Origin: Vulcanimicrobiota bacterium
GTDB lineage: Bacteria; Vulcanimicrobiota; Vulcanimicrobiia; Vulcanimicrobiales; Vulcanimicrobiaceae
Direction: 5' to 3'
Assembly (NCBI GenBank): GCA_027306785.1
Contig: DAHUZB010000029.1
Location: forward strand, 1-53,979
DNA: 53,979 nucleotides
Positions 5,213 to 51,699 of this stretch are shown piece after piece. The notes under the pieces were generated by a model. It did not search any database. It was not told where the DNA came from and worked only from the letters and a program-made list of their open reading frames with translations. Made by a program: the position numbers and the translations under genes. How positions within the stretch are numbered: the first letter of the stretch is position 1; every line of letters begins with the position of its first letter.

Positions 5213-5298
5213 CCTTCGACGAGCTCAGGATGACACGGTTGTTGTCAGGATGACACGGTTGTTGTCAGGATGACACGGTTGTTGTCAGGATGACACGG
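5213..5298. repeat. dispersed element plus 20-bp tandem repeats between sucC and sucD
   Basis: A copy of the dispersed element (variant CTTCGACGAGCTCAGGATG) is followed by a 20-bp tandem unit whose core CAGGATGACACGG begins at 5226, 5246, 5266 and 5286. Each copy is joined to the next by TTGTTGT. The last copy abuts the sucC stop codon (TAA, complement at 5300-5302). The array therefore makes up nearly the whole sucC-sucD intercistronic region. Confidence 0.9.
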
Positions 5299-5299
5299 A

Positions 5300-6472
5300 T
5301 TAGGCGGAGGCCGCGGCGAGTTCGACGGCGCGTTTGGCGCCTTCGTCCATCGTTTCGACCGGCGTCATGCCCGCATCGGCGAGAATGCGACGGCCTTCTT
5401 CTTCGTTCGTTCCGGTGAGACGGATCACGAGCGGAATCTTGCGCGACTTCGTCGTGTTGAGCGCTTCGACGATGCCCTTCGCGACTTCGTCGCCGCGCGT
5501 GATACCGCCGAAGATGTTGATGAAGAACACCTTGGCATTGGTGTGATTCACCACGAGCTCGTAGCATTTACGCACGCGCTCGGCGTTGGCGCCGCCGCCC
5601 ACATCGAGGAAGTTCGCGATCTCGCCGCCCGCGTTTTTCACCGCGTCCATCGTGCCCATCGCCAGGCCCGCGCCGTTTGCCATCGTGCCGACCGTGCCGC
5701 CGAAGCGGCGGAAATTGCGAATGCCGAGACCCGCATCGGTCGCAAGCGACTCGTCTTCGTCGAGCGGCAGCACCGTCTGCCATTCTTTGAATTCCGGATG
5801 ACGGAAGAGCGCGTCGTCGTCGAGTTCGACCTTCGCGTCGGCCGCGATCACGCGCCCGTCCTTGGTGAGGATCAGCGGATTGATCTCGACGAGCTTGGCG
5901 CCGTATTTGAAGAAGAGATCGTACATGCCCGCGACGATCGCCGGGAACTGCTTACGATAGCCGGCATCGAGATCGGTCGAGAAGGCGAGCTTACGCCCGA
6001 TGAAGGGTGAGTAGCCGATCGCGGTATCGACGAAGAACGTGCTGAACGATTCCGGATGCTTCTCGTGCACTTCTTCGACGTCCATGCCGCCGAATTTGGT
6101 GACGATGATCGCGGGCTTCTTCGTGGTGCGATCGACGCTGATCGCGCAGTAGGCTTCGAGCGCGACGTCGAGCGTCTCTTCGACGAGCAGCGACTTGATC
6201 GGCTCGCCGTTCGGATTCTGACGGTTCGGCGGCATCGGCGTCGCCATGATCTCCTGTGCGACCTTGCGGCCTTCGTCCGCGCTCGACGCGAACTTGATCT
6301 TCCCGGCCTTGCCGCGGCCGCCCATCAGCACTTGAGCCTTCACGACCCACTTGCCGGGATTCTTTTCGATGAACGCCGCGACATCGTCGGGCGTCGTGCA
6401 GTGCTGCGAGCGCGGAACCGGAATGCCGCTGCGGCGGAACAGTTCCTTACCCTGATACTCCATGAGATTCAT
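5300..6472 (-). CDS. sucC: succinyl-CoA synthetase beta subunit
   Basis: The 390 residues fit the family. It starts MNLMEYQGKELF, the usual SucC opening, which supports the chosen ATG over the next Met four residues on. The ATP-grasp region (KWVVKAQVLMGGRGKAGKIKF) binds nucleotide. The C-terminal CoA-ligase domain contains GGGANAERV and NIFGGITRGDEVAKGI, the nucleotide-specificity and active-site loops. It pairs with SucD in the TCA step succinyl-CoA to succinate with substrate-level phosphorylation, and could also take up succinyl-CoA from amino-acid or acyl-CoA breakdown. The 409-nt gap upstream is occupied by the palindrome array, so its promoter must lie in or next to that array. Confidence 0.97.
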   Translation of the reverse strand: MNLMEYQGKELFRRSGIPVPRSQHCTTPDDVAAFIEKNPGKWVVKAQVLMGGRGKAGKIKFASSADEGRKVAQEIMATPMPPNRQNPNGEPIKSLLVEETLDVALEAYCAISVDRTTKKPAIIVTKFGGMDVEEVHEKHPESFSTFFVDTAIGYSPFIGRKLAFSTDLDAGYRKQFPAIVAGMYDLFFKYGAKLVEINPLILTKDGRVIAADAKVELDDDALFRHPEFKEWQTVLPLDEDESLATDAGLGIRNFRRFGGTVGTMANGAGLAMGTMDAVKNAGGEIANFLDVGGGANAERVRKCYELVVNHTNAKVFFINIFGGITRGDEVAKGIVEALNTTKSRKIPLVIRLTGTNEEEGRRILADAGMTPVETMDEGAKRAVELAAASA

Positions 6473-6543
6473 GGCGTGCTCTTGTTACTCTCCTGTTCTC
6501 GAGTGTTGTGCCCTTCGATCGGGCGATTCGATGGTTCGACCGT

Positions 6544-6867
6544 CCTTCGACAAGCTCAGGATGACACGCGCCCGCGCCAACCCGACACATTTGCGCCACC
6601 GACACATTCGTGTCGAACTGACACACCTGTGTCCGAGCCGACACATCCGTGTCTGAGCCGACACATCCGTGTCTGAGCCGACACATCCGTGTCCGAGCCG
6701 ACACATCCGTGTCTGAGCCGACACATCCGTGTCGAGCTGACACATCCGTGTCGAGCTGACACATCCGTGTCGAGCCGACACATCCGCGTCGAGCCGACAC
6801 ATCCGTGTCTGAGCCGACACATCCGTGTCGAGCTGACATACATGTGTCACCCTGAGCTTGTCGAAGG
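6544..6867. repeat. array of 13 GACAC-N4-GTGTC palindromes framed by inverted dispersed elements
   Basis: The outer ends are inverted copies of the dispersed element at 6544-6567 and 6844-6867. Between them, from 6601 on, are 13 consecutive hairpin units of the form GACAC-N4-GTGTC, mostly GACACATCCGTGTC. They are separated by 5-nt GAGCC/GAGCT or 6-nt TGAGCC/CGAGCC linkers, giving a 19-20 bp period. Unit 10 has GCGTC, and the last unit (GACATACATGTGTC) merges into the right-hand element. A degenerate half unit lies at about 6584. Both strands are open over part of the array, but the translations are simple repeats with no protein character. This accounts for most of the 409-nt gap between the acyl-CoA dehydrogenase gene and sucC; the remaining 6473-6543 holds only unique, probably promoter, sequence. 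Confidence 0.95.
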
Positions 6868-6881
6868 GCGCTACCGCGTGT

Positions 6882-8045
6882 CTAGTCCAATTTTCCCAGC
6901 AGCGATCGTGCGATGATGATCTGCTGGATCTCCGAGGTTCCCTCGTAGATTTCCGTGATCTTCGCGTCGCGGTAGAAACGCTCGATCGCGAATTCCGTCG
7001 TGTAGCCGTAGCCGCCGTGGATCTGCAGCGCCTCCGCCGCGTGCTTGCGCGCCGCGGTCGAGGCGAAGAGCTTCGCCTTGCTCGCCTCGATCACGAACGG
7101 CTTTTCGGCATCGGCGAGTCCCGCGGCGCGATAGACGAGCAGCCGCGCGGCGTCGAGATCCATCGCCATCTGCGCGATCTTGAACGAGACGCCCTCGAAC
7201 GCGCCGATCGCGCGGCCGAACGCGACGCGATACTTGGCGAACGCCACCGACTGGTCGAGGCATCCGGCGAGGATGCCGGTCGCCTGCGCCGCGATACCGA
7301 TGCGTCCGCCCGCAAGCGCCGTCATCGCCGATCCGAATCCGTCGCCCTCGTTGCCGAGCAGCGCGCTTTCGGGAACGAACACGTCATCGAAGGCGAGATC
7401 GCAGGTGTTGCTCGTGTGGATGCCGAGTTTTTCGGTCACCTTTTCCACGGTGATTCCGGGCGACGCGTTGTCCACGAGAAACGCGCTCACGCCCTTCGCA
7501 CCCGCACCGCCCGTGCGGAACATCCCCATCGTTACGCCCGCGTAACTGCCGTTCGTGCACCACTGCTTGCGTCCGTTGAGCAAAAAGCCGCCGTCCACGC
7601 GCTTCGCGCTCGCGCGCAGCGCCGCCGCATCCGAACCGCAGTCGGGTTCGGTGAGCGCAAATCCGGCGATGGTATCGCCGCCGGCGAGTTCGGGGAGCCA
7701 CTGCCGCTTCTGCGCCTCGTTGCCCAGGCGCAGGATCGCGGAGCAGATCATCGAGTGCACCGAAACGGTCACGGCCGTACCCGCGTCGATGCGCGCGAGC
7801 TCTTCGATCGCGAGCGAGTACGACACGTAGTCCGCGCCGACGCCGCCGTAGGCTTCGGGCACGAGGATGCCCATGATGCCCGCACCGTCGAGTTTGGTAT
7901 AGAGCGCGCGGGGAAACGTATGCTCGCGATCCCACTGCGCGATGTGCGGAGCGATCTCGCGCTGTGCGATCTCCGCCGCGAGCCCGGCGATCTGCCGCTG
8001 CTCTTCGGTGAGATCGAATTGCGCGCGCACGCCGGAATCGAGCAT
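6882..8045 (-). CDS. acyl-CoA dehydrogenase (short-chain/butyryl-CoA type)
   Basis: A flavoenzyme of 387 residues that oxidises a short acyl-CoA to its trans-2-enoyl form and passes electrons to ETF. The all-alpha N-terminal domain is followed by the FAD/substrate segment FALTEPDCGSDAAAL. Next come WCTNGSYAG, the GGRIGIAAQATGI helix, and the C-terminal HGGYGYTTEFAIERFYRDAK. IYEGTSEIQ holds Glu368, the expected catalytic base of the short-chain family. The start codon overlaps the stop of the 3-hydroxyacyl-CoA dehydrogenase gene (TGATG), so the two are translationally coupled. It is the last gene of the minus-strand run. No enoyl-CoA hydratase is encoded in the window, so the spiral is incomplete here. 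Confidence 0.95.
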   Translation of the reverse strand: MLDSGVRAQFDLTEEQRQIAGLAAEIAQREIAPHIAQWDREHTFPRALYTKLDGAGIMGILVPEAYGGVGADYVSYSLAIEELARIDAGTAVTVSVHSMICSAILRLGNEAQKRQWLPELAGGDTIAGFALTEPDCGSDAAALRASAKRVDGGFLLNGRKQWCTNGSYAGVTMGMFRTGGAGAKGVSAFLVDNASPGITVEKVTEKLGIHTSNTCDLAFDDVFVPESALLGNEGDGFGSAMTALAGGRIGIAAQATGILAGCLDQSVAFAKYRVAFGRAIGAFEGVSFKIAQMAMDLDAARLLVYRAAGLADAEKPFVIEASKAKLFASTAARKHAAEALQIHGGYGYTTEFAIERFYRDAKITEIYEGTSEIQQIIIARSLLGKLD

Positions 8046-15171: not shown

Positions 15172-16817
15172 TTCAGACCATCCTTCGACAAGCTCAGGAT
15201 GACACGACTACTCCCCGTCCCCACTGCGTCACCCCGAGCGCCCGCTGTGTCACCCTGAGCTTGTGCTGTGTCACCCTGAGCTTGTCGAAGGGCGGCTTCA
15301 AAGGGGTTCCAGTACTCGGGGGCGCGGGCGAAGACGCCGTCGAAGCCGCGGCCGCCGTCGGGCGAGCGCGAGACGTCGGCGAAGACCGCCGCTTCGATCG
15401 CGTTCATCAACCCCATCTCGGCGACGCGTTCGAGCAGCGCCGATGCGTCGGCGAGCACGTTCTGCGCCCGCTTTTCGATCACGCCGTCGGGCTTGAAGGT
15501 GATCTCGTCGCCGAAATGACGCGCCGTATTCATCACGTACCGCGCGTTTTCGATCGAGAGCGCGCGATCGCCGAGGAACGGCGTGTGAATCGCTTCGGTC
15601 AACATGCCGACGAGATGGATCGATTGCTTCGTCATCACCGAGGTGAGATTGAACATCGCGTCCATCAGGTGACCTTTGAAGATGTCGCCCGTCATGTGTT
15701 TGGTCGGCGGCATGTACTTCAGCGGCGCCTTCGGGAAGATTTGACGCGTCAGCTGCGCCTGCGCCACCTGGTAAAGAAACCCGTCCTGCAGATCGGGATT
15801 GATCTCGTAGGCGTCGCCGAGGCCGATCTGCTCGTCGGGCATGCCCGCGCGATGCGCGAATTCTTCGTTGATGAACTGCGATGCGAGCACCGCGGGTGCT
15901 TGCTCCACCGCGTCGGCGGTGGTGAGGTAATTATCCTCGCCCGTGTTGATGATGATGCCCGCGTACGCGTTGAGCATGCGGCTGAAATGCTGATCGACGA
16001 AGGTACGCTTCATGTTGATGTCGCGGAACAGGATGCCGTACATCGAATCGTTGAGCAGCATGTCGAGCCGTTCGAGCGCCGCCATCGACGCGATCTCGGG
16101 CATGCAGAGGCCGCTTGCATAGTTGGTGAGCATCACGTAGCGGCCTTCGCGCTCCGAGACCTCGTCGAGCGCCTCGCGCATGATCGAAAAATTCGCCTGC
16201 GTGGCGTAGGTGCCGCCGAAGCCTTCGGTCGTGGGGCCGTACGGCACGAAATCGAGCAGCGACTGCCCCGTGGAGCGGATGACGGCAATGATCTGCGCGC
16301 CCGACTCCACCGCCGCGACCGCCGCGGTGCGGTCTTCGTAGATGTTGCCGCTCGCGACGATCACGTAGAGCAGCGGCGGCGGCAGCTGTGGCAGACGACG
16401 CAGGCGCTCTTCGCGCTCCGCGCGGCGCGCGCGAATGCGCGCGAGCGACGCCTCGACGTGCGGGGCGATCGCGCCGCGCGCCGCTTCATCGGGCACGTGC
16501 GCGAAGTCGGCGAGCGCGTAGGTGCCCGCGGCGATCGCCTCGCCCAACGCGCGCGGTTCGAGCCCGGTCTCGGCGAGCGCCTTGCCGAAGGCGAGCGCCG
16601 CGCCGCGCGAGCGTTCCTGCGGGGAGAGCGCGTCGACCAGCATGTTCGGAATGGGGATCTCGTCGGCACCGACGCCGTCGACGCCGAGCAGGCGCAGCAC
16701 CGAACGCTCGACCGCGACGGTGGAATGAGCCTCGATGAACGCACTGACCGGCTCCGCAATGGCCGAAGCCAATGCGCGGCACCGGTCGACGGTATTCTGG
16801 TCGATCCGCAATTCCAT
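15168..16817 (-). CDS. kamD: D-lysine / beta-lysine 5,6-aminomutase alpha subunit with repeat-derived C-terminal tail
   Basis: The 549-residue TIM-barrel subunit of lysine 5,6-aminomutase, longer than the usual 510-520. Recognisable family stretches are DFVPYGPTTEGFGGTYAT, MLTNYASGLCMPEIA, INTGEDNYLTTADA, PTKHMTGDIFKGH and IHTPFLGDRALSIENARYVMN. The family-like sequence ends at about residue 507 (PEYWNPFEAA). Residues of about 508-549 (LRQAQGDTAQAQGDTAG, then RVILSLSKDG) are a translation of the inverted dispersed repeats at 15182-15291 and have no catalytic counterpart. The tail stays open up to a TGA that overlaps the kamE ATG, so it preserves translational coupling. It is placed 36 nt after rmlD, an odd neighbour for amino-acid catabolism. 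Confidence 0.95.
   Translation of the reverse strand: MELRIDQNTVDRCRALASAIAEPVSAFIEAHSTVAVERSVLRLLGVDGVGADEIPIPNMLVDALSPQERSRGAALAFGKALAETGLEPRALGEAIAAGTYALADFAHVPDEAARGAIAPHVEASLARIRARRAEREERLRRLPQLPPPLLYVIVASGNIYEDRTAAVAAVESGAQIIAVIRSTGQSLLDFVPYGPTTEGFGGTYATQANFSIMREALDEVSEREGRYVMLTNYASGLCMPEIASMAALERLDMLLNDSMYGILFRDINMKRTFVDQHFSRMLNAYAGIIINTGEDNYLTTADAVEQAPAVLASQFINEEFAHRAGMPDEQIGLGDAYEINPDLQDGFLYQVAQAQLTRQIFPKAPLKYMPPTKHMTGDIFKGHLMDAMFNLTSVMTKQSIHLVGMLTEAIHTPFLGDRALSIENARYVMNTARHFGDEITFKPDGVIEKRAQNVLADASALLERVAEMGLMNAIEAAVFADVSRSPDGGRGFDGVFARAPEYWNPFEAALRQAQGDTAQAQGDTAGARGDAVGTGSSRVILSLSKDGLK
15182..15291. repeat. inverted dispersed elements with tandem GTGTCACCCTGAGC copies inside the kamD 3' end
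   Basis: The left end CCTTCGACAAGCTCAGGATG plus ACAC is at 15182-15205. The right end is its inverse at 15268-15291. Between them are a partial copy (GCGTCACCCCGAGC, about 15227) and an 18-nt copy (GTGTCACCCTGAGCTTGT, 15247-15264). The arrangement repeats that of the 6544-6867 array, but it lies within the reading frame of kamD. Confidence 0.9.
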
Positions 16818-22179: not shown

Positions 22180-23036
22180 TCGCTCGTCTCGTCACCCTCT
22201 TCGCACTCGTCGGCGCCTTTGCGGCGGCCGTCGCGCTCTCGACCGCAACGGCGCAAGCCGCGCCGCGTAGCGTGTACCACGGCGGCACCTACTTCGGCTC
22301 GGTGGTCGTGGAGCCCGGACAGGTGGTCGACGGCGACCTGAACGTGATCTTCGGGAACGCCGAGATCATGGGCGCGGTCAACGGCGACGTCAACGTGGTG
22401 GGCGGCAACATCGACGTGCGGGGCGGCACGATCTCGGGCCAGACGCACGCGATCGGCGGCGCCGTCACCCAGAGCATCGTTCCGTGGGCCCCGAACGAAA
22501 ACTTCAGCACGCCGTACGCCCAAGATCAGCGCCTCTGGTGGCGGATCGCCTGGGACGTGGTCGCGCTCGTGGTCTTCCTCATCTTTCCGGTGCGCACGCG
22601 CATGGCGCTCGATCGCCTGGAGCAGCACCCCGGCATCTCCACCGCGGCGGGCCTGGTGGGCTGGATCGCGGTCATCCCGCTGATGGTGCTGCTGGCCGTG
22701 ACCGTGCTGCTGATCCCGCTGATCCCGCTTGAGTTCGTGCTGCTGGCCGTGGCGCTCTTCATCGGGCACGCGGCGCTCGCGCTCTTGATCGGGCGGCGCT
22801 TCTACGAGCTGATCCAGCCGAACACCACCCCGTCGCCGCTCGTCGCGCTCGTGCTCGGCCTCGTGCTCCTCACGGCATCCGAGCTGGTGCCGGTGGTCGG
22901 GGTGCTCGTGATGCTGCTGGTGGCGCTCGTGGGCCTGGGGGCCGTGATCCTCACCTTCGTACCCGATGGGGCGCAGAGCGCGGGATTCCCCCCACCGCGC
23001 CGGGATGTGGGCGGACCACCGATGCCGGTCGGCTAA
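22176..23036 (+). CDS. membrane protein with bactofilin-like repeats
   Basis: A 286-residue protein whose ATG overlaps the anti-sigma stop (ATGA). A signal peptide (residues 1-28, ending AQAA) is followed by short Gly-rich beta turns (VDGDLNVIFGNAEIMGAVNGDVNVVGGNIDVRGGTISG, given here by character and position 45-90) that resemble the right-handed helix of bactofilins. Then come four hydrophobic helices (about 110-270) and a Pro-rich end. Proteins of this shape are common next to ECF/anti-sigma pairs in envelope-stress loci. It may sense or form a scaffold at the membrane. The exact function is unknown. Confidence 0.8.
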   Translation: MIARLVTLFALVGAFAAAVALSTATAQAAPRSVYHGGTYFGSVVVEPGQVVDGDLNVIFGNAEIMGAVNGDVNVVGGNIDVRGGTISGQTHAIGGAVTQSIVPWAPNENFSTPYAQDQRLWWRIAWDVVALVVFLIFPVRTRMALDRLEQHPGISTAAGLVGWIAVIPLMVLLAVTVLLIPLIPLEFVLLAVALFIGHAALALLIGRRFYELIQPNTTPSPLVALVLGLVLLTASELVPVVGVLVMLLVALVGLGAVILTFVPDGAQSAGFPPPRRDVGGPPMPVG

Positions 23037-23046
23037 TATCGGAGGC

Positions 23047-24258
23047 ATGACCACCCACGTTTCGCGCGCGGCGAAATTCGCCGAACGCACGTCCCGCCTG
23101 CGGGCATCGACCATCCGCGAGATGCTCAAAGTCACGCAACAGCCCGACGTGATCTCGTTCGGCGGCGGGCTGCCCGCGCCGGAGCTCTTTCCCACGCGCG
23201 AGATCGCGCACTGCACCGCCGAGGTGATGGACGAGTACGGCGCAGCCGCCTTGCAGTACGGCGTGACCGAAGGCATTCCGGAGATGCGCGCGTGGGTGGC
23301 GGAGCGGCTTTCGAGCCGCCTGAATACGCTTTTCGATCCCGCCGAGATTCTGATCGTGAACGGCTCGCAGCAGGGGCTCGATCTGATCGGCAAGATCTTT
23401 TTGGATCCGGGCGACCACGTGGTGCTGGAGAACCCGTCGTACCTCGGTGCGATTCAGGCGTTCGATGCTTACCAGGCGCGCTATCTCACGGTGGAGACCG
23501 ACGAAGACGGCATCGTGCCCGCCTCGCTCGAGCGCGTGCTCGAGCACGCCGACCCGTTCCCGAAGTTCTTGTACATCGTTCCGAACTTTCAGAATCCCAC
23601 GGGGCGCACGCTCGCGGCGGATCGGCGCGAGGCGATCGTGCGCATCTGCGAGCGCTTCGATCTGCCGATCGTGGAAGACGACCCCTACGGCGAACTGCGC
23701 TTCGAAGGCGAGGAGCTGCCCTCGCTCGCATCGCTCGCGACGAACGGCGGCGTGATCTACTCGGGCACGGGCAGCAAGATCATGGCACCCGGCCTGCGCG
23801 TGGCCTGGCTTGCGATTCCCGATCACGAGGTGCGCGAAAAGATCGCGCTTGCGAAGCAGGGGACCGACTTGCAGACGGGTTCGCTCGCACAATACGTGTT
23901 CCACCGCTACGCGAGTAAGCGCGACGACTTCGAGGCGCACGTGGAGCGCATCGTGGAGACCTATGCCCACCGCCGCGACGTGATGCTCGCCGCGCTCGCC
24001 GCGACCATGCCCGCCGGCGTGCGCTACAACCGCCCGGCCGGCGGCATGTTTCTGTGGGCGACGATCGACGGCGTGGACACGAGCGAGCTGCTGAAGCTCA
24101 GCGCGCAGCAGAAAGTGGTCTTCGTGCCCGGCGTGAGCTTCTTCCCCGCGCGCGACGTAACCGACGGCATGCGCCTGAACTTCTCGAACGCGGGCGAGGA
24201 GAAAATCCAAGAAGGCATCTCCCGCCTAGCCGCCGCAGTACGGGCCTTCAAGAACTAA
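23047..24258 (+). CDS. PLP-dependent class I/II aminotransferase (2-aminoadipate transaminase type)
   Basis: The protein is 403 residues from the ATG at 23047. An in-frame upstream Met at 22966 would overlap the preceding gene and add a non-conserved Arg-rich leader. PLP-fold markers are YGVTEGIPEMRAW, NGSQQGLDLIGKIF, ENPSYLGAIQAF, VPNFQNPTGRTL with the cofactor Asn, EDDPYGELRF, and SGTGSKIMAPGLRVAW with the Schiff-base Lys. The family includes LysN-like 2-aminoadipate and other broad-specificity transaminases. With kamDE 8 kb away, a role in lysine or 2-aminoadipate metabolism is plausible but not shown. GGAGG lies only one base before the ATG, too close for a standard ribosome-binding site. 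Confidence 0.92.
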   Translation: MTTHVSRAAKFAERTSRLRASTIREMLKVTQQPDVISFGGGLPAPELFPTREIAHCTAEVMDEYGAAALQYGVTEGIPEMRAWVAERLSSRLNTLFDPAEILIVNGSQQGLDLIGKIFLDPGDHVVLENPSYLGAIQAFDAYQARYLTVETDEDGIVPASLERVLEHADPFPKFLYIVPNFQNPTGRTLAADRREAIVRICERFDLPIVEDDPYGELRFEGEELPSLASLATNGGVIYSGTGSKIMAPGLRVAWLAIPDHEVREKIALAKQGTDLQTGSLAQYVFHRYASKRDDFEAHVERIVETYAHRRDVMLAALAATMPAGVRYNRPAGGMFLWATIDGVDTSELLKLSAQQKVVFVPGVSFFPARDVTDGMRLNFSNAGEEKIQEGISRLAAAVRAFKN

Positions 24259-24263
24259 CCCAG

Positions 24264-24313
24264 CGTCACCCCGAGCCCCTCGAAGGGCGTGTCACCCTGA
24301 GCCCCTCGAAGGG
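24264..24313. repeat. two tandem copies of a variant dispersed element
   Basis: Two 25-nt copies in direct orientation (starting at about 24263 and 24289) read GCGTCACCCCGAGC and GTGTCACCCTGAGC, each followed by CCCTCGAAGGG. They differ from the standard element in having CCCTCGAAGGG where CTTGTCGAAGG is expected, which makes a better short palindrome (CCCTCGAAGGG). They fill the gap between the aminotransferase gene and the next gene. Confidence 0.85.
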
Positions 24314-24340
24314 CTCGCTATCTAAGGAGACCAGCAGTTC

Positions 24341-46793: not shown

Positions 46794-48082
46794 TCCTCGC
46801 GCTCGGCCCGCTCGCGCTCGCGACGGGCGCATGCGCCGCGCGCGCGCTGCTCGCACATGCTCCCGCGCGCTTTGCAATCGACCGCGCGCAGGCGCTCGCC
46901 GTCGCGACGAATTGGGGCGGCTACGGCACGGCGCAGTGGCTGCTGCTCGCCGCCGCGCTCGCATGCGCGGCGATCCCGTCTGCCGTCGTCCTTCGCGGCC
47001 GGGGCGCGCCGCCGCTCGCGATGACGCTCGGATATGCCGCCGCGTCCATGCTCGCGGGATTCGCCTGGCTGCCGCTCTTCTCGAGCGACGTCTACGCGTA
47101 CGCCGCCTACGGCGAGATGGCCCGACTCGGCCTCGATCCCTATCTGCACGCATCGGCTTCAACCCATGCCGCGGCGATCGACGCGGCTCGTTGGCAGTGG
47201 AGCGGGTCGCTGCCGATCTGCGTCTACGGTAGCGCCTTCGTCGCGCTCGCCCGCGCGGTGATGACGCTCTGCGCGCACGCGCCGCTCGTCGCCGCGCTCG
47301 ACACGCTGCGCGCGCTCTCGTGCGCGGCGGCGCTCGTCAGCGCGGCGCTGCTCTACGCGGTGCGCGGCGGCGACACGCGGAGCAAGCGGCGCACGGCGTT
47401 CGTCTTTGCCGCTAATCCGGTCGTGCTGTGGAGTGCGATCGAGGGCCACAACGATACGCTGATGCTCGCGATCGTGCTCGCGGGCGCATGGCTCGCGCGT
47501 CGGCGTCTCGCCGCGGGCATCGCGCTCGTCGCCTTGGGCGCGCTCGTGAAGCTGCCCGCACTCGCGGCGGCGAGCGCGATGAGCGCGCAGCGCATCCTCG
47601 CGCGCCGCGACGCACTGCAGGCCGCGGGCGGGTGGATCGTCGGCACGCTCGCGGTCGTCGCGGGATCGCTCGCGCTGCTTCACGGGGTGCGCAGCGATCT
47701 CGCGCCGCACGGCCACTACGCGCCGCAAGGCTCGGTGCAGGCGCTCTCGCCGATCCTCGCCGGGCTGCTCGCGCTCGCGGTGCTCCTGCGCCTGCGCGCG
47801 TTCGAGCACGGATTCGATCGCTGGACGATCGCGGCACTGGCGCTCTGGCTCGCGATTCCCAACCCGTACCCGTGGTACGGGCTCTGGATCGTGCCGCTCG
47901 GCGCGCTCGCTCGCGACGGGCGCATCCGGGCCGCCGCCTGCACGATCGCCGCGGTGGCGCTGCTTCGCTACCTCCCCGACGCAGCCGGTACGCCCGATCC
48001 GCTCGCGAGCGCCGGGCTCGCGGCACTTGCGCTTGCGGCCTACGCCCCGCTCTTCTCCCGTGCTATAATCAGCCGCTCGTAA
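46757..48082 (+). CDS. GT-C-like polytopic membrane glycosyltransferase
   Basis: The protein is 441 residues from a GTG at 46757, which overlaps the ligase gene by 37 nt. This is the only start codon I see near the first helix; upstream in-frame sequence is Arg-rich shadow. It has 11-12 helices. The first loop has the acidic SSDVYAYAAYGEMARLGLDPY typical of GT87/mannosyltransferase-like GT-C proteins (an Asp-containing loop that binds the polyprenyl-phosphate sugar). NPVVLWSAIEGHNDTLML and LWLAIPNPYPWYGLWIVPL are also characteristic. It is likely to use a lipid-linked mannose or similar sugar. Confidence 0.8.
   Translation: MDAADRSRHRGLILALGPLALATGACAARALLAHAPARFAIDRAQALAVATNWGGYGTAQWLLLAAALACAAIPSAVVLRGRGAPPLAMTLGYAAASMLAGFAWLPLFSSDVYAYAAYGEMARLGLDPYLHASASTHAAAIDAARWQWSGSLPICVYGSAFVALARAVMTLCAHAPLVAALDTLRALSCAAALVSAALLYAVRGGDTRSKRRTAFVFAANPVVLWSAIEGHNDTLMLAIVLAGAWLARRRLAAGIALVALGALVKLPALAAASAMSAQRILARRDALQAAGGWIVGTLAVVAGSLALLHGVRSDLAPHGHYAPQGSVQALSPILAGLLALAVLLRLRAFEHGFDRWTIAALALWLAIPNPYPWYGLWIVPLGALARDGRIRAAACTIAAVALLRYLPDAAGTPDPLASAGLAALALAAYAPLFSRAIISRS
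48061..48069 (+). promoter_or_regulatory. extended -10 promoter candidate for mfd
   Basis: TGCTATAAT is a perfect extended -10 box (TGn plus TATAAT, 48064-48069), lying inside the last codons of the upstream gene and 16 nt before the mfd ATG. No -35 box sits at 16-18 nt, which an extended -10 can do without. The leader would be about 9 nt. Confidence 0.4.
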
Positions 48083-48084
48083 TC

Positions 48085-51000
48085 ATGCATACCGATGTTC
48101 CCACCGCGCCCGCGCCTTCGGCGCGCGGCCTGCACGATGCCCTGCTGCGCGCCCTACCCGCCGCAAGCCGCCCGCTCGCCGAGCTGATCGAGGCGCTGCG
48201 GACGGGGCGCGGCGCACACGCATGCCACGAAACCGTGGCGGCCGCGCGCCCGGCGCTGCTGGCCGCGCTCTACCGCACGCTCTCCGTGCCGATGCTCGTG
48301 ATCGTGCCGACCGCCGACGTGGCCGAGCGCGCCTTCGCCGATCTCCTCTACTACCTCGGCGAGAGCGAGCCCACGCAAGTCGCCCTGCTGCGCTCGCGCG
48401 ATGAAGCGATCGGCGCGATCGAATCGCCGTCGGAGCGCAGCGCGCGCATGACGTTGCTCGCCGATCTCGCGAACGACGCGCATCGCCTGGTGCTCGCGCC
48501 GGTGAGCGCGCTGCGTCAGTATCTGATGCCGCGCGCGCTCTTCGACGATCTGCGCTTCACGCTGCGCGTCGGGGACGAAGCGGGTTGGGATACGCTGCAG
48601 TCCAAGCTCTTCTCGCTCGGCTACGCGCGCACCGACGTGGTGAGCGCGGTCGGCGAGTACGCGGTGCGCGGCGGAATCATCGACATCTTCGCCGCCACGG
48701 CCGACGCACCGACGCGCATCGAATTCTTCGGCGACGAGATCGAAAGCATTCGCCCCTTCGATCTCGTGACGCAGCGCAGCGAAGGCACGCTCGATGCGCT
48801 GCCGATCGTGCCGTGGAGCGAGATCCCGCGCGATCCGCAGTACCGCGAGCGCATCCTCGCGCGTTTCGACGGCCCCGAGCGCGTGCGCGACGTACTCGCC
48901 TCGTTCGTGGAGAGCGGCAGCGAGCTGCCCGCATCGTGGCTTCCGCTCGCGCACGACGAACGCGCGACGATTCTCGACTATCTCGCGCCGCGCACCGCGA
49001 TCGTGCTCGACGAACCGTCGATGCTCGCCACCATCGAACGCGCGCTCGAAGAGGAGCGCTCGCGCGAACAGAGCGTGCTGCTCGCGGGCGTCGAGTCGGG
49101 CGAGTTTTCGGTCAACACCACCGAGGTGGACGAAGCGCTGCTCGCCGAGGTGGCGACTCCGCATCCGCGCCTGGCCGAGATGGCGACGGCGTTTGCGGCG
49201 CACCCGGTCGCCGTCTTTCCCGGCGCGATCGACTCGCCCGATACGCTTGCGTGGGTGCCGCCGATTCGTTCCACGCACGTGATCGAATGTCGTCCGGCCG
49301 AGCACTTCAACCGACAGATCGATCTCTTCTCGCAGAGCGTGCGCGAATGGGTCGCTCAGGGCGAGACGCTCTTCATCGCGAGCGGCTCCGTCTCGCGCAC
49401 GAGCGATCTGCTGCGCGCGGTCGGCGTGCAGGTCGAACGCAACCTCACCCACCTCCACCTGCGGCCTCTGCGAGCGCTCCTTCGACAAGCTCAGGATGAC
49501 ACGGGGAGCTCGGGTGACACGGGGAGCTCGGGTGACACGGGGCGGGTGATCATCGATCACGGCAGCATCGAGGCGGGCTTCGTGATTCCCGATCTGCGCC
49601 TGCGGGTGCTCGGCGATCGCGAAATCTTCGGCCAGCCGCCCAAACGCGTCAAACTGCGCGCGGTGAAAGAAGGCGTGCCCGTCACGCTCGCCGATCTGAA
49701 GGTCGGCGATTACGTCGTGCACGCCGTGCACGGCATCGGGCAATACCTCGGCTTGCGCACGGAGACGATTCTCGGCGCCACGCAAGACTATCTCGATCTG
49801 CAGTACGCGGGATCGGATCGCATGCTCGTCCCGGTGACGCAGATGCATCAGGTCACCAAGTACTCCGCGGCCGAAGGGCAGTCGCCGCGCCTCTCCAAGA
49901 TGGGCGGCGCCGACTGGGCGCGCGCGAAGACGCGCGTCTCCGAATCGCTCGCGAAGATCGCCGACGGCCTCGTCGCGCTCTACGCCGAGCGCGAGCTCGC
50001 GCGCGGCTACGCCTTCTGCGAAGACACGGCCTGGCAGACCGAGATGGAAGAGGCCTTCCCCTACGAGCCGACCGCCGATCAGAAAAAAGCGATCGAATCG
50101 ACCAAACGCGACATGGAGAGCGCACGCCCGATGGACCGCCTGGTCTGCGGCGACGTGGGCTACGGCAAGACCGAAGTCGCGATGCGCGCCGCATTCAAGG
50201 CGATCGCGGATCAGAAGCAAGTGGCGGTGCTCGTGCCGACCACGCTGCTCGCCGATCAGCACTACCGCAACTTCTCGTCGCGTTTCGCGGGCTATCCGGT
50301 GCGTATCGAAGAGGTTTCGCGCTTCAAGACCAAGGCCGAATCGAAAGCGATCCTGAGCGACCTCGCGCTCGGCAAAGTCGACGTGATCATCGGCACGCAT
50401 CGATTGCTGCAAAAAGACGTCGCCTTCGCCGATCTCGGGCTCATCATCATCGATGAGGAGCAGCGCTTCGGCGTGATGCACAAGGAGCGCCTCAAAGAGT
50501 ACAAGACGTCGGTCGACGTGCTCACCCTCTCGGCGACGCCGATTCCGCGCACGCTGCACATGTCGCTGATGGGCGTGCGCGATCTCTCGCTCATCCAGAC
50601 CGCGCCGAAGAACCGCATGTCGGTCAAGACCGTCGTGGTTCCCACGAGCGACGCGATCGTGCAGCGCGCGATCACCGCCGAACTCGATCGCGGGGGACAG
50701 GTGTACTACCTGCACAATCGCGTCGAATCGATCTACGCGGTCAAGAACGCGCTCGAGCGGCTGGTGCCGCGCGCGCGCATCGCGGTCGGACACGGGCAGA
50801 TGCACGAGCACGAACTCGAACCGGTCATGCAGGATTTCATCGAGGGCAAGACCGACGTGCTCGTCGCGACCACGATCATCGAGAACGGTATCGATATTCC
50901 GAACGTCAATACGATGATCGTCAACGACGCCGACAAATTCGGCCTCGCGCAGCTCTATCAGTTGCGCGGACGCGTCGGGCGTTCGAACCATCAGGCCTAC

Positions 51001-51699
51001 TGCTACCTGCTCTATCAGGGGCACAAGGCGCTTACCGAGGATGCCAAGGCGCGTCTCGAAGCGATTCGCGAATTCACGCACCTCGGGTCGGGACTGCAGA
51101 TCGCGATGCGCGATCTCGAGATTCGCGGCGCGGGCAATCTGCTCGGCGCGGCACAGTCGGGTTTCATCGGCTCGGTCGGTTTCGATACCTACTGCCAGTT
51201 GCTCGCCGACGCGATCGCGGAGCGTCGCGGTATGACGTCTACGCTCGAGGAGCAGCGCGAAGCGGTCATCGACGTGAAGATCTCCGCCTTCATTCCGAAC
51301 GACTACATTCCCCAAGTCTCACAGAAAATCGCGGTCTACCAACAGCTGGCGAAAGCGCGCAGTCTGAGCGAGGTCGAGGAGATTGCCGCGGGCGTGCGCG
51401 ACCGCTTCGGGCCGTTCCCGGTGCCGCTCGACCGCTTGGTCGAACTGACGAAGCTGCGCACGGTCGCATTGCAGAAGCACGTCACGCGCGTGGTCGTCGA
51501 CGAGAAGCGCCTCACCCTCGGTGTCGGTTCCTCGTTCACCTTGGATGCGAGTACGATTCCCAAGTTTCAGTCGCTCACGAAGAATCGCTTCCGATTCGGC
51601 GAAGGCAAGATTCTCGTGGATCTCCCGCCGCTGCCGAAGGGGCGTTCAGCCGAAGAGGTGTGGATGCCGCTTCTGCGGCAGTTGCTCGAAGCGATGTGA
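48085..51699 (+). CDS. mfd: transcription-repair coupling factor Mfd with repeat-derived insertion
   Basis: The 1204 residues are the SNF2-like translocase that removes RNA polymerase stalled at lesions and recruits UvrA. The N-terminal UvrB-like module (VPTADVAERAFADLLYYLGE, then EYAVRGGIIDIFAATADAPTRIEFFGDEIESIRPFD) covers about residues 1-350. The CarD-like RNA-polymerase-interaction domain (LKVGDYVVHAVHGIGQYLG) starts at about 537. The helicase motors have Walker A GDVGYGKTE at about 689 and the IDEEQRFGV box at about 790. LSATPIPRTLHMSL, the TRG motif region and the C-terminal domain follow. Residues of about 465-486 (RQAQDDTGSSGDTGSSGDTG) are not in other Mfd proteins and translate the dispersed element at 49479-49542, before the polymerase-interaction domain. 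The stop overlaps the next start. Confidence 0.97.
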   Translation: MHTDVPTAPAPSARGLHDALLRALPAASRPLAELIEALRTGRGAHACHETVAAARPALLAALYRTLSVPMLVIVPTADVAERAFADLLYYLGESEPTQVALLRSRDEAIGAIESPSERSARMTLLADLANDAHRLVLAPVSALRQYLMPRALFDDLRFTLRVGDEAGWDTLQSKLFSLGYARTDVVSAVGEYAVRGGIIDIFAATADAPTRIEFFGDEIESIRPFDLVTQRSEGTLDALPIVPWSEIPRDPQYRERILARFDGPERVRDVLASFVESGSELPASWLPLAHDERATILDYLAPRTAIVLDEPSMLATIERALEEERSREQSVLLAGVESGEFSVNTTEVDEALLAEVATPHPRLAEMATAFAAHPVAVFPGAIDSPDTLAWVPPIRSTHVIECRPAEHFNRQIDLFSQSVREWVAQGETLFIASGSVSRTSDLLRAVGVQVERNLTHLHLRPLRALLRQAQDDTGSSGDTGSSGDTGRVIIDHGSIEAGFVIPDLRLRVLGDREIFGQPPKRVKLRAVKEGVPVTLADLKVGDYVVHAVHGIGQYLGLRTETILGATQDYLDLQYAGSDRMLVPVTQMHQVTKYSAAEGQSPRLSKMGGADWARAKTRVSESLAKIADGLVALYAERELARGYAFCEDTAWQTEMEEAFPYEPTADQKKAIESTKRDMESARPMDRLVCGDVGYGKTEVAMRAAFKAIADQKQVAVLVPTTLLADQHYRNFSSRFAGYPVRIEEVSRFKTKAESKAILSDLALGKVDVIIGTHRLLQKDVAFADLGLIIIDEEQRFGVMHKERLKEYKTSVDVLTLSATPIPRTLHMSLMGVRDLSLIQTAPKNRMSVKTVVVPTSDAIVQRAITAELDRGGQVYYLHNRVESIYAVKNALERLVPRARIAVGHGQMHEHELEPVMQDFIEGKTDVLVATTIIENGIDIPNVNTMIVNDADKFGLAQLYQLRGRVGRSNHQAYCYLLYQGHKALTEDAKARLEAIREFTHLGSGLQIAMRDLEIRGAGNLLGAAQSGFIGSVGFDTYCQLLADAIAERRGMTSTLEEQREAVIDVKISAFIPNDYIPQVSQKIAVYQQLAKARSLSEVEEIAAGVRDRFGPFPVPLDRLVELTKLRTVALQKHVTRVVVDEKRLTLGVGSSFTLDASTIPKFQSLTKNRFRFGEGKILVDLPPLPKGRSAEEVWMPLLRQLLEAM
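49479..49542. repeat. dispersed element with 18-bp tandem copies inside mfd
   Basis: The full element (CCTTCGACAAGCTCAGGATG plus ACAC, 49479-49502) is followed by two copies of an 18-bp unit, GGGGAGCTCGGGTGACAC (49503-49520 and 49521-49538). The reading frame stays open and encodes Gln/Asp/Gly/Ser-rich residues. Confidence 0.9.

Follow-up and report, generated by a model that had tools for sequence, protein, structure and literature searches.

A palindromic tandem array upstream of sucC, probably a minisatellite founded by a dispersed REP-like element

The tandem array of GACAC-N4-GTGTC palindromes upstream of sucC in the window, that is, the whole stretch of 53,979 nucleotides analysed here, is very probably a minisatellite that grew from a dispersed REP-like element, with no dedicated role at sucC. 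It is more likely to be restless repeat DNA than a sucC switch, and the latter reading is replaced by a genome-wide pattern in which most sites of the element have given rise to minisatellites peculiar to the locus. The features of the sucC site are as follows.

5300 to 6472, minus strand: sucC, succinate-CoA ligase beta, 390 aa (family models)
6473 to 6881, no strand: spacer from the ACAD stop to the sucC start, 409 bp
6541 to 6567, plus strand: left framing element copy (CGTCCTTCGACAAGCTCAGGATGACAC), whose GACAC is the first array arm
6563 to 6600, plus strand: two decayed units at the left array edge
6601 to 6848, plus strand: array with a 19-20 bp period, made of GACAC-N4-GTGTC units (11 perfect, 2 near-perfect) joined by (C/T)GAGCC or GAGC(C/T) linkers
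6844 to 6870, minus strand: right framing element copy, inverted (GTGTCACCCTGAGCTTGTCGAAGGGCG on the plus strand)
6882 to 8045, minus strand: gene of the acyl-CoA dehydrogenase (ACAD) family, 387 aa, on the strand of sucC and upstream of it

The array and its place in the ACAD-sucC-sucD string

The preliminary description of this DNA reported thirteen units with a period of 19-20 bp, framed by a dispersed element in inverted orientation, and both statements were confirmed. Eleven perfect units were found by direct reading and scans (6601, 6620, 6640, 6660, 6680, 6700, 6720, 6739, 6758, 6796, and 6816), and two more, at 6777 (GACACATCCGCGTC) and 6835 (GACATACATGTGTC), have one imperfect arm each; this total comes from one assembly that is interrupted at several sister arrays, and the exact copy number is uncertain. 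The units are spaced 19 or 20 bp apart by the linkers GAGCC, GAGCT, CGAGCC, and TGAGCC. The centre of the array is homogeneous, whereas the two units at its left side (6563 and 6584) are decayed. With up to three mismatches allowed, 19 near matches to the unit were counted, as compared with a mean of 6.0 and a maximum of 12 in shuffled sequences, a count above all 100 shuffles. The framing copies of the element (CYTTCGACAAGCTCAGGRTGACAC; 27 nt, 93% complementary) occupy 6541-6567 and 6844-6870, and both are in phase with the array: its first arm is the GACAC of the left copy, and the right arm of its last unit is formed by the first five bases (GTGTC) of the right copy. The array is not of the CRISPR type, which is defined by unique spacers, as its linkers are near-identical and only 5-6 bases long.

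The array lies outside genes, and the open reading frames called mechanically across it are not coding. The distances to the neighbouring genes had been given correctly: sucC starts at 6472 on the minus strand, with 129 bp between it and the first perfect unit; the end of the ACAD frame is at 6882. The identities of sucC and sucD are supported by family models; the upstream gene matches several acyl-CoA dehydrogenase models, every one under its curated cut-off, and its assignment is safe at superfamily level only. Because ACAD, sucC, and sucD keep their order on one strand in 25 of 30 genomes from three families, with gaps of -4 to about 1,400 bp that are often below 130 bp, the three genes probably form a co-transcribed operon.

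Comparison was made with two congeners, the nearest relatives of this bacterium. The same spacer is 55 bp long, empty, and without the element in the congener G002, and consists of 228 bp of unrelated sequence, also without the element, in the congener G001. Since the spacer is empty in the one and element-free in the other, the array is most simply read as a recent insertion into the spacer of a probable operon. A conserved regulator of sucC was rejected on the same comparison, and the suggestion that the array tunes TCA flux found no support there; the missing conservation is compatible with a species-specific function. Further arrays of this kind had been proposed as an object of search. 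The pattern of two adjacent units has its sole occurrence in this genome in the present array, with zero occurrences in 59 relatives. GACAC-GGTC-GTGTC is also part of the whole-element arrays that lie at contig ends on C15 and C3.

The ACAD-sucC spacer has other occupants elsewhere. In G006 it holds an element-like copy, and in G012 (L050 1106-1500) it contains another palindromic repeat, CCCTTCGAGACGC...GCGTGCTCCTCAGGGTGACA, which is present in several copies and has both outer ends of the element, as if the loop had been replaced and the stem and tail kept. The spacers of G001 and G008 (L041 about 2700-2880 and L047 about 2700-2900) contain a 75-nt tRNA-like stretch antisense to the operon, with the pattern GGGGC..TTCGATGG..TCGACGG.....GCGGGTTCGATYCCCGC..TCCA, of which a remnant seems to lie beside the left element in the genome studied here. 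The stretch resembled a portion of a tmRNA, but ARAGORN and Rfam gave nothing credible for a tRNA or tmRNA gene in these two spacers, and the true tmRNA of this genome is on C13.

The dispersed element and its sibling arrays

The element core, CTTCGACAAGCTCAGG, is found at 127 places in this genome with up to one mismatch and at 212 places in G001. Among 60 genomes its distribution is patchy inside one family and nearly absent outside, and close matches were also seen on plasmids of Sphingobium, Sinorhizobium, and others. Its stem, CCCT/AGGG, has 4 bp around a loop of 11 bases, and a lone stem is energetically weak. The outer stem pair is nevertheless held by covariation (C-G in 69 copies, T-A in 43, and G-C in 2), being paired in 115 of 140 copies against a shuffled maximum of 98, a comparison in which copies within arrays are not independent. 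Inverted pairs are frequent, head-to-tail clusters are common, and many sites fall in open frames. The element is thus, in the broad sense, a REP-like dispersed palindrome, as judged by copy number, shortness, covarying stem, and inverted pairs. The RAYT transposase (Y1_Tnp, PF01797) had no match in this genome or in the element-rich G001, G036, G027, G032, G035, G028, and G010, a Y1_Tnp gene being present in 2 of 19 element-bearing genomes, and no GTAG recurs beside the stem in the listed element copies. A RAYT-mobilised REP of the GTAG type was rejected on these two results.

About 60 element clusters were catalogued in this genome among the matches listed, most of them with tandem arrays, and non-redundant arrays near elements number at least 58 here and at least 60 in G001, with periods that are mostly 16-21 bp or, for whole elements, 28-40 bp. 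The array unit is an element end (GCTCAGGRTGACAC or its complement) joined to a linker private to the site, with a period mostly of 18-21 bp, and the end shared among arrays is GGRTGACAC. Other units consist of the element core alone (15-17 bp) or of the whole element with a linker (28-40 bp). The following siblings lie in the window.

5214 to 5298, plus strand: element with an array (TCAGGATGACACGGTTGTTG) of 3.7 x 20 bp, in the interval from sucD to sucC
15183 to 15290, no strand: inverted element pair framing a 21-bp repeat; the same site in G001 has a different interior
24265 to 24314, no strand: two tandem copies of a 26-bp element variant
49480 to 49542, plus strand: element with an 18-bp array (LRQAQDDTGSSGDTGSSGDTG), in frame in mfd

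Further element-framed arrays are found at C5:27839 (8.2 x 18 bp), C13:267462, C35:42255, and C31:81862, and on C36 of G001. A long non-palindromic array of 11.6 x 21 bp (TCACGCGGAGCTGCCCATGTG) adjoins an element cluster at L136 344-581 (G000:C34, about 22943-23180).

Palindromy is not a property of this class. When units were compared with shuffled sequences at P about 0.05, 2-3 of 34 short-period arrays stood out in this genome and none of 24 in G001, so that palindromic units are no commoner than chance and palindromy was rejected as a class trait (2-3 of 58 arrays). Because the class as a whole is no more palindromic than shuffles, the dyad of the sucC array is best read as the amplified centre of an inverted element pair and not as a selected operator.

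Turnover between congeners and the reading frame

At the sites shared with G001, flanks are 76-97% identical, but the arrays are unlike in copy number, linker, and period. Copy numbers are 4 versus 3 (L135/L116), 2 versus 6 (L036/L174), 1 versus 6 (L007/L183), and 0 versus 6 (window 8887/L184), and at one site seven 18-bp units stand against about six of 21 bp (L138/L108). The sibling at 5214-5298 has 3.7 copies here, a single element without an array in G001, and no complete element in G002. At C9:5280 (L018/L168), this genome has a palindromic GTGTCTTCCGACAC array (GTGTC-N4-GACAC), whereas G001 has a single GACAC-N5-GTGTC by a lone element; this is the same kind of palindromic array together with its unamplified counterpart. 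Because the congeners differ at shared sites in copy number, linker, and even period, the sibling arrays are fast-turning minisatellites seeded by the element. Copy number at the same locus differs between lineages, the defining trait of a minisatellite or VNTR, at the sibling sites compared between two congeners, the comparison at the sucC site itself being one of presence versus absence. Such same-site comparisons offer a natural view of the birth of bacterial minisatellites.

The arrays inside genes follow the reading frame. Open frames of at least 150 codons contain 30 of the 38 arrays with periods of 18 or 21 bp and only 3 of the 20 with periods of 17, 19, 20, 22, or 23 bp (Fisher P = 4e-6), in counts that cover both species and include a few sites twice, once per species, which leaves the cases less than wholly independent. 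The peaks at 18 and 21 bp arise because arrays within open frames are held to multiples of three; the reading frame explains the preference, and a helical-phase signal was rejected. Where there is no coding the period is free, and values such as 19 and 20 bp are found in arrays outside genes. The clearest example is the mfd gene (47428-51699), a model-supported transcription-repair coupling factor, which carries the in-frame element and 18-bp array listed above; its G001 counterpart has a differently duplicated in-frame version (ALRQAQGALRQAQGDT), whereas the Mfd of G002 has no insert. By eye, in-frame arrays were also noted in genes resembling uvrA (L124 620-710 and L091), ileS (L118 600-650), and phosphoglycerate mutase (L102 1500-1590), and the uvrA-like site is common to G001 and this genome, with different repeat units. 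Element arrays account for the LRQAQGDT, LSLSKG, and PELVEG stretches in translated gene frames.

The preliminary description had suggested that the array grew from the element itself, and this view is borne out by the edges that are in register, by the dozens of sibling arrays built from the element end, and by the single and amplified states at C9:5280. Its further proposal, that the TGAGC linker comes from the element's CCCTGAGC through loss of ACCC, fits the sequence but is unproven; the derivation is plausible, though not unique. It may be envisaged that an inverted element pair landed in the spacer of the conserved ACAD-sucC-sucD string and that the centre of the pair, GACAC-N-GTGTC, was tandemly duplicated, the duplicated piece perhaps including, once small deletions had occurred, several bases (TGAGC) from the neighbouring element. 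Slippage in replication or unequal recombination would then have amplified and homogenised the units, a process that hairpins in single-stranded DNA could have favoured, with decayed units left at the edge.

Known repeat families and competing explanations

Among known repeats, the element resembles REPs and BIMEs in being short and of high copy number, in its weak covarying stem, and in its inverted pairs and clusters. In the account of REPs given by Di Nocera et al. 2013 (PMC3733652), clusters 'reiterated in tandem' and REP-encoded protein stretches are reported; the element likewise lies mostly between genes and also within genes, including repair genes such as uvrA. REPs of the CGTC type are defined there by a CGTC tag, a loop of 4-5 bases, and an 8-9 bp stem whose first two positions are AT (PMC3733652). 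The 4-bp stem and 11-base loop do not fit this family, though CGTC or CGCC precedes the stem in some copies, and together with the lack of a GTAG tag and of a RAYT they place the element outside both the GTAG and the CGTC families as published. The unit here is, moreover, usually an element end with a site-specific linker, not a whole REP or dimer. BIMEs are alternating inverted REPs with defined spacers and largely extragenic; inverted pairs are common here, but many sites are inside open frames. As in REPINs, two inverted copies often frame a spacer, but the spacer here is an expanding minisatellite whose unit differs from site to site, and a RAYT gene was not found.

Mycobacterial MIRU-VNTR loci are located between operon genes, and their units are longer than those described here. 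One family serves as the tandem unit at all of those loci, whereas the units described here are peculiar to their loci and share the element end alone. MIRU-VNTRs are described as dispersed minisatellites that vary in copy number from lineage to lineage (PMC3635867). The element in mfd, inserted in frame in a protein-coding gene, recalls the Rickettsia palindromic elements. These are much longer than the element here, which differs from them also in the in-frame tandem expansion of its end. Their presence inside genes is described in the same account of REPs (PMC3733652). The founding of a different minisatellite at each site by an element end is a variant not found described in the literature searched, and the array class is REP/BIME/MIRU-like, without a RAYT and outside the described REP families. 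Searches of the literature with the core string returned unrelated papers only, an absence that proves little, and the main text of the RepRanger paper (PMC12306157) makes no mention of the element; the family may be unnamed.

Of the explanations that compete with a seeded minisatellite, a BIME-like function in RNA survives best, although it is unlikely. On this view a rod or ladder in the ACAD-sucC RNA would either shield the 3' end of the upstream message or serve as a substrate for RNase III, with unequal expression of the two genes as the outcome. The predicted fold of minus-strand RNA from 6541-6870 (330 nt) is a single long rod at -200 kcal/mol (z = -11.4), the conserved gene order makes co-transcription likely, and no terminator-like site was found in 6400-7000, all of which would suit such a role; the array is, however, absent from both congeners and from 59 relatives, and so strong a predicted fold is expected of any tandem palindrome and need not be selected. 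The ladders of alternative hairpins foreseen in the preliminary description are borne out in part: the transcript can fold, and alternative pairings are possible, with single hairpins predicted to be about equally stable in phase (-4.8 kcal/mol) and out of phase (-4.9 to -5.8 kcal/mol), but the predicted minimum is one rod and not a hairpin ladder. By analogy with what has been proposed for REPs, a rod in intercistronic RNA might be open to RNase III or might hinder 3' decay. If the spacer is transcribed, an effect of this kind, such as the separation of ACAD and sucC mRNA by RNase III, would be a by-product, and any influence of the array on transcript processing is more likely to be a side effect because the array is absent in the congeners.

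A broader view of the seeded minisatellites, which we regard as speculative and improbable, holds that the element belongs to an undescribed REP-like family, mobilised without a RAYT, that intrinsically expands its GGRTGACAC end into private minisatellites, both in intergenic DNA and, in frame, within important genes, driven by an unrecognised enzyme or replication process. Rather less probable still is that the element carries an active, non-RAYT system of amplification or mobilisation that tandemly copies its end. Most element clusters bear arrays in two species, with private linkers, the most element-rich genomes have no Y1 transposase, and the outer stem pair covaries, as such a system might predict; ordinary slippage, on the other hand, explains the changes in copy number, and no enzyme gene was identified in a search confined to Y1_Tnp.

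It is very improbable that the array was misassembled or given a wrong length. At about 250 bp it exceeds a typical short read, and element arrays stand at several contig ends (C3, C7, C14, C15, and C24), so that assemblers do fail at such places; this array, however, lies inside its contig, its linkers distinguish the units, the decay at its edge looks biological, and sibling arrays arise independently in the G001 assembly. The element arrays in turn explain why the assembly breaks where it does. Matching units were noted at the end of C14 and the start of C15, the end of C15 and the start of C3, and the end of C7 and the start of C24; the members of each pair are probably neighbours, and the G001 locus L199 bridges C15 and C3.

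The least probable explanation is an operator array, as had also been suggested, in which a dimeric protein would bind cooperatively upstream of sucC to each GACAC-N4-GTGTC, the sites being spaced by two helical turns: a perfect 10-base dyad does recur every 19-20 bp, and other phyla have arrays of this dyad type that lack the element, but the G001 and G002 sites lack the element and the array is not conserved at sucC, no sigma-70-like promoter was found, no other such array exists here or in 59 relatives save the element-borne whole-unit arrays at contig ends, and equally palindromic units among the siblings (2-3 of 58) are about as frequent as chance allows.

With a looser pattern of three adjacent palindromes, 17 stretches were found among 84,980 species; their linkers differ, several look coding or unrelated, and the element was found near none of them within 8-kb loci. 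Independent GACAC-N4-GTGTC arrays without the element, on several contigs each, were observed in a Prevotella MAG (L070, L074, L082, and L083) and a Hydrogenedentes MAG (L079 and L086), and in these two genomes the dyad array may itself be a dispersed repeat.
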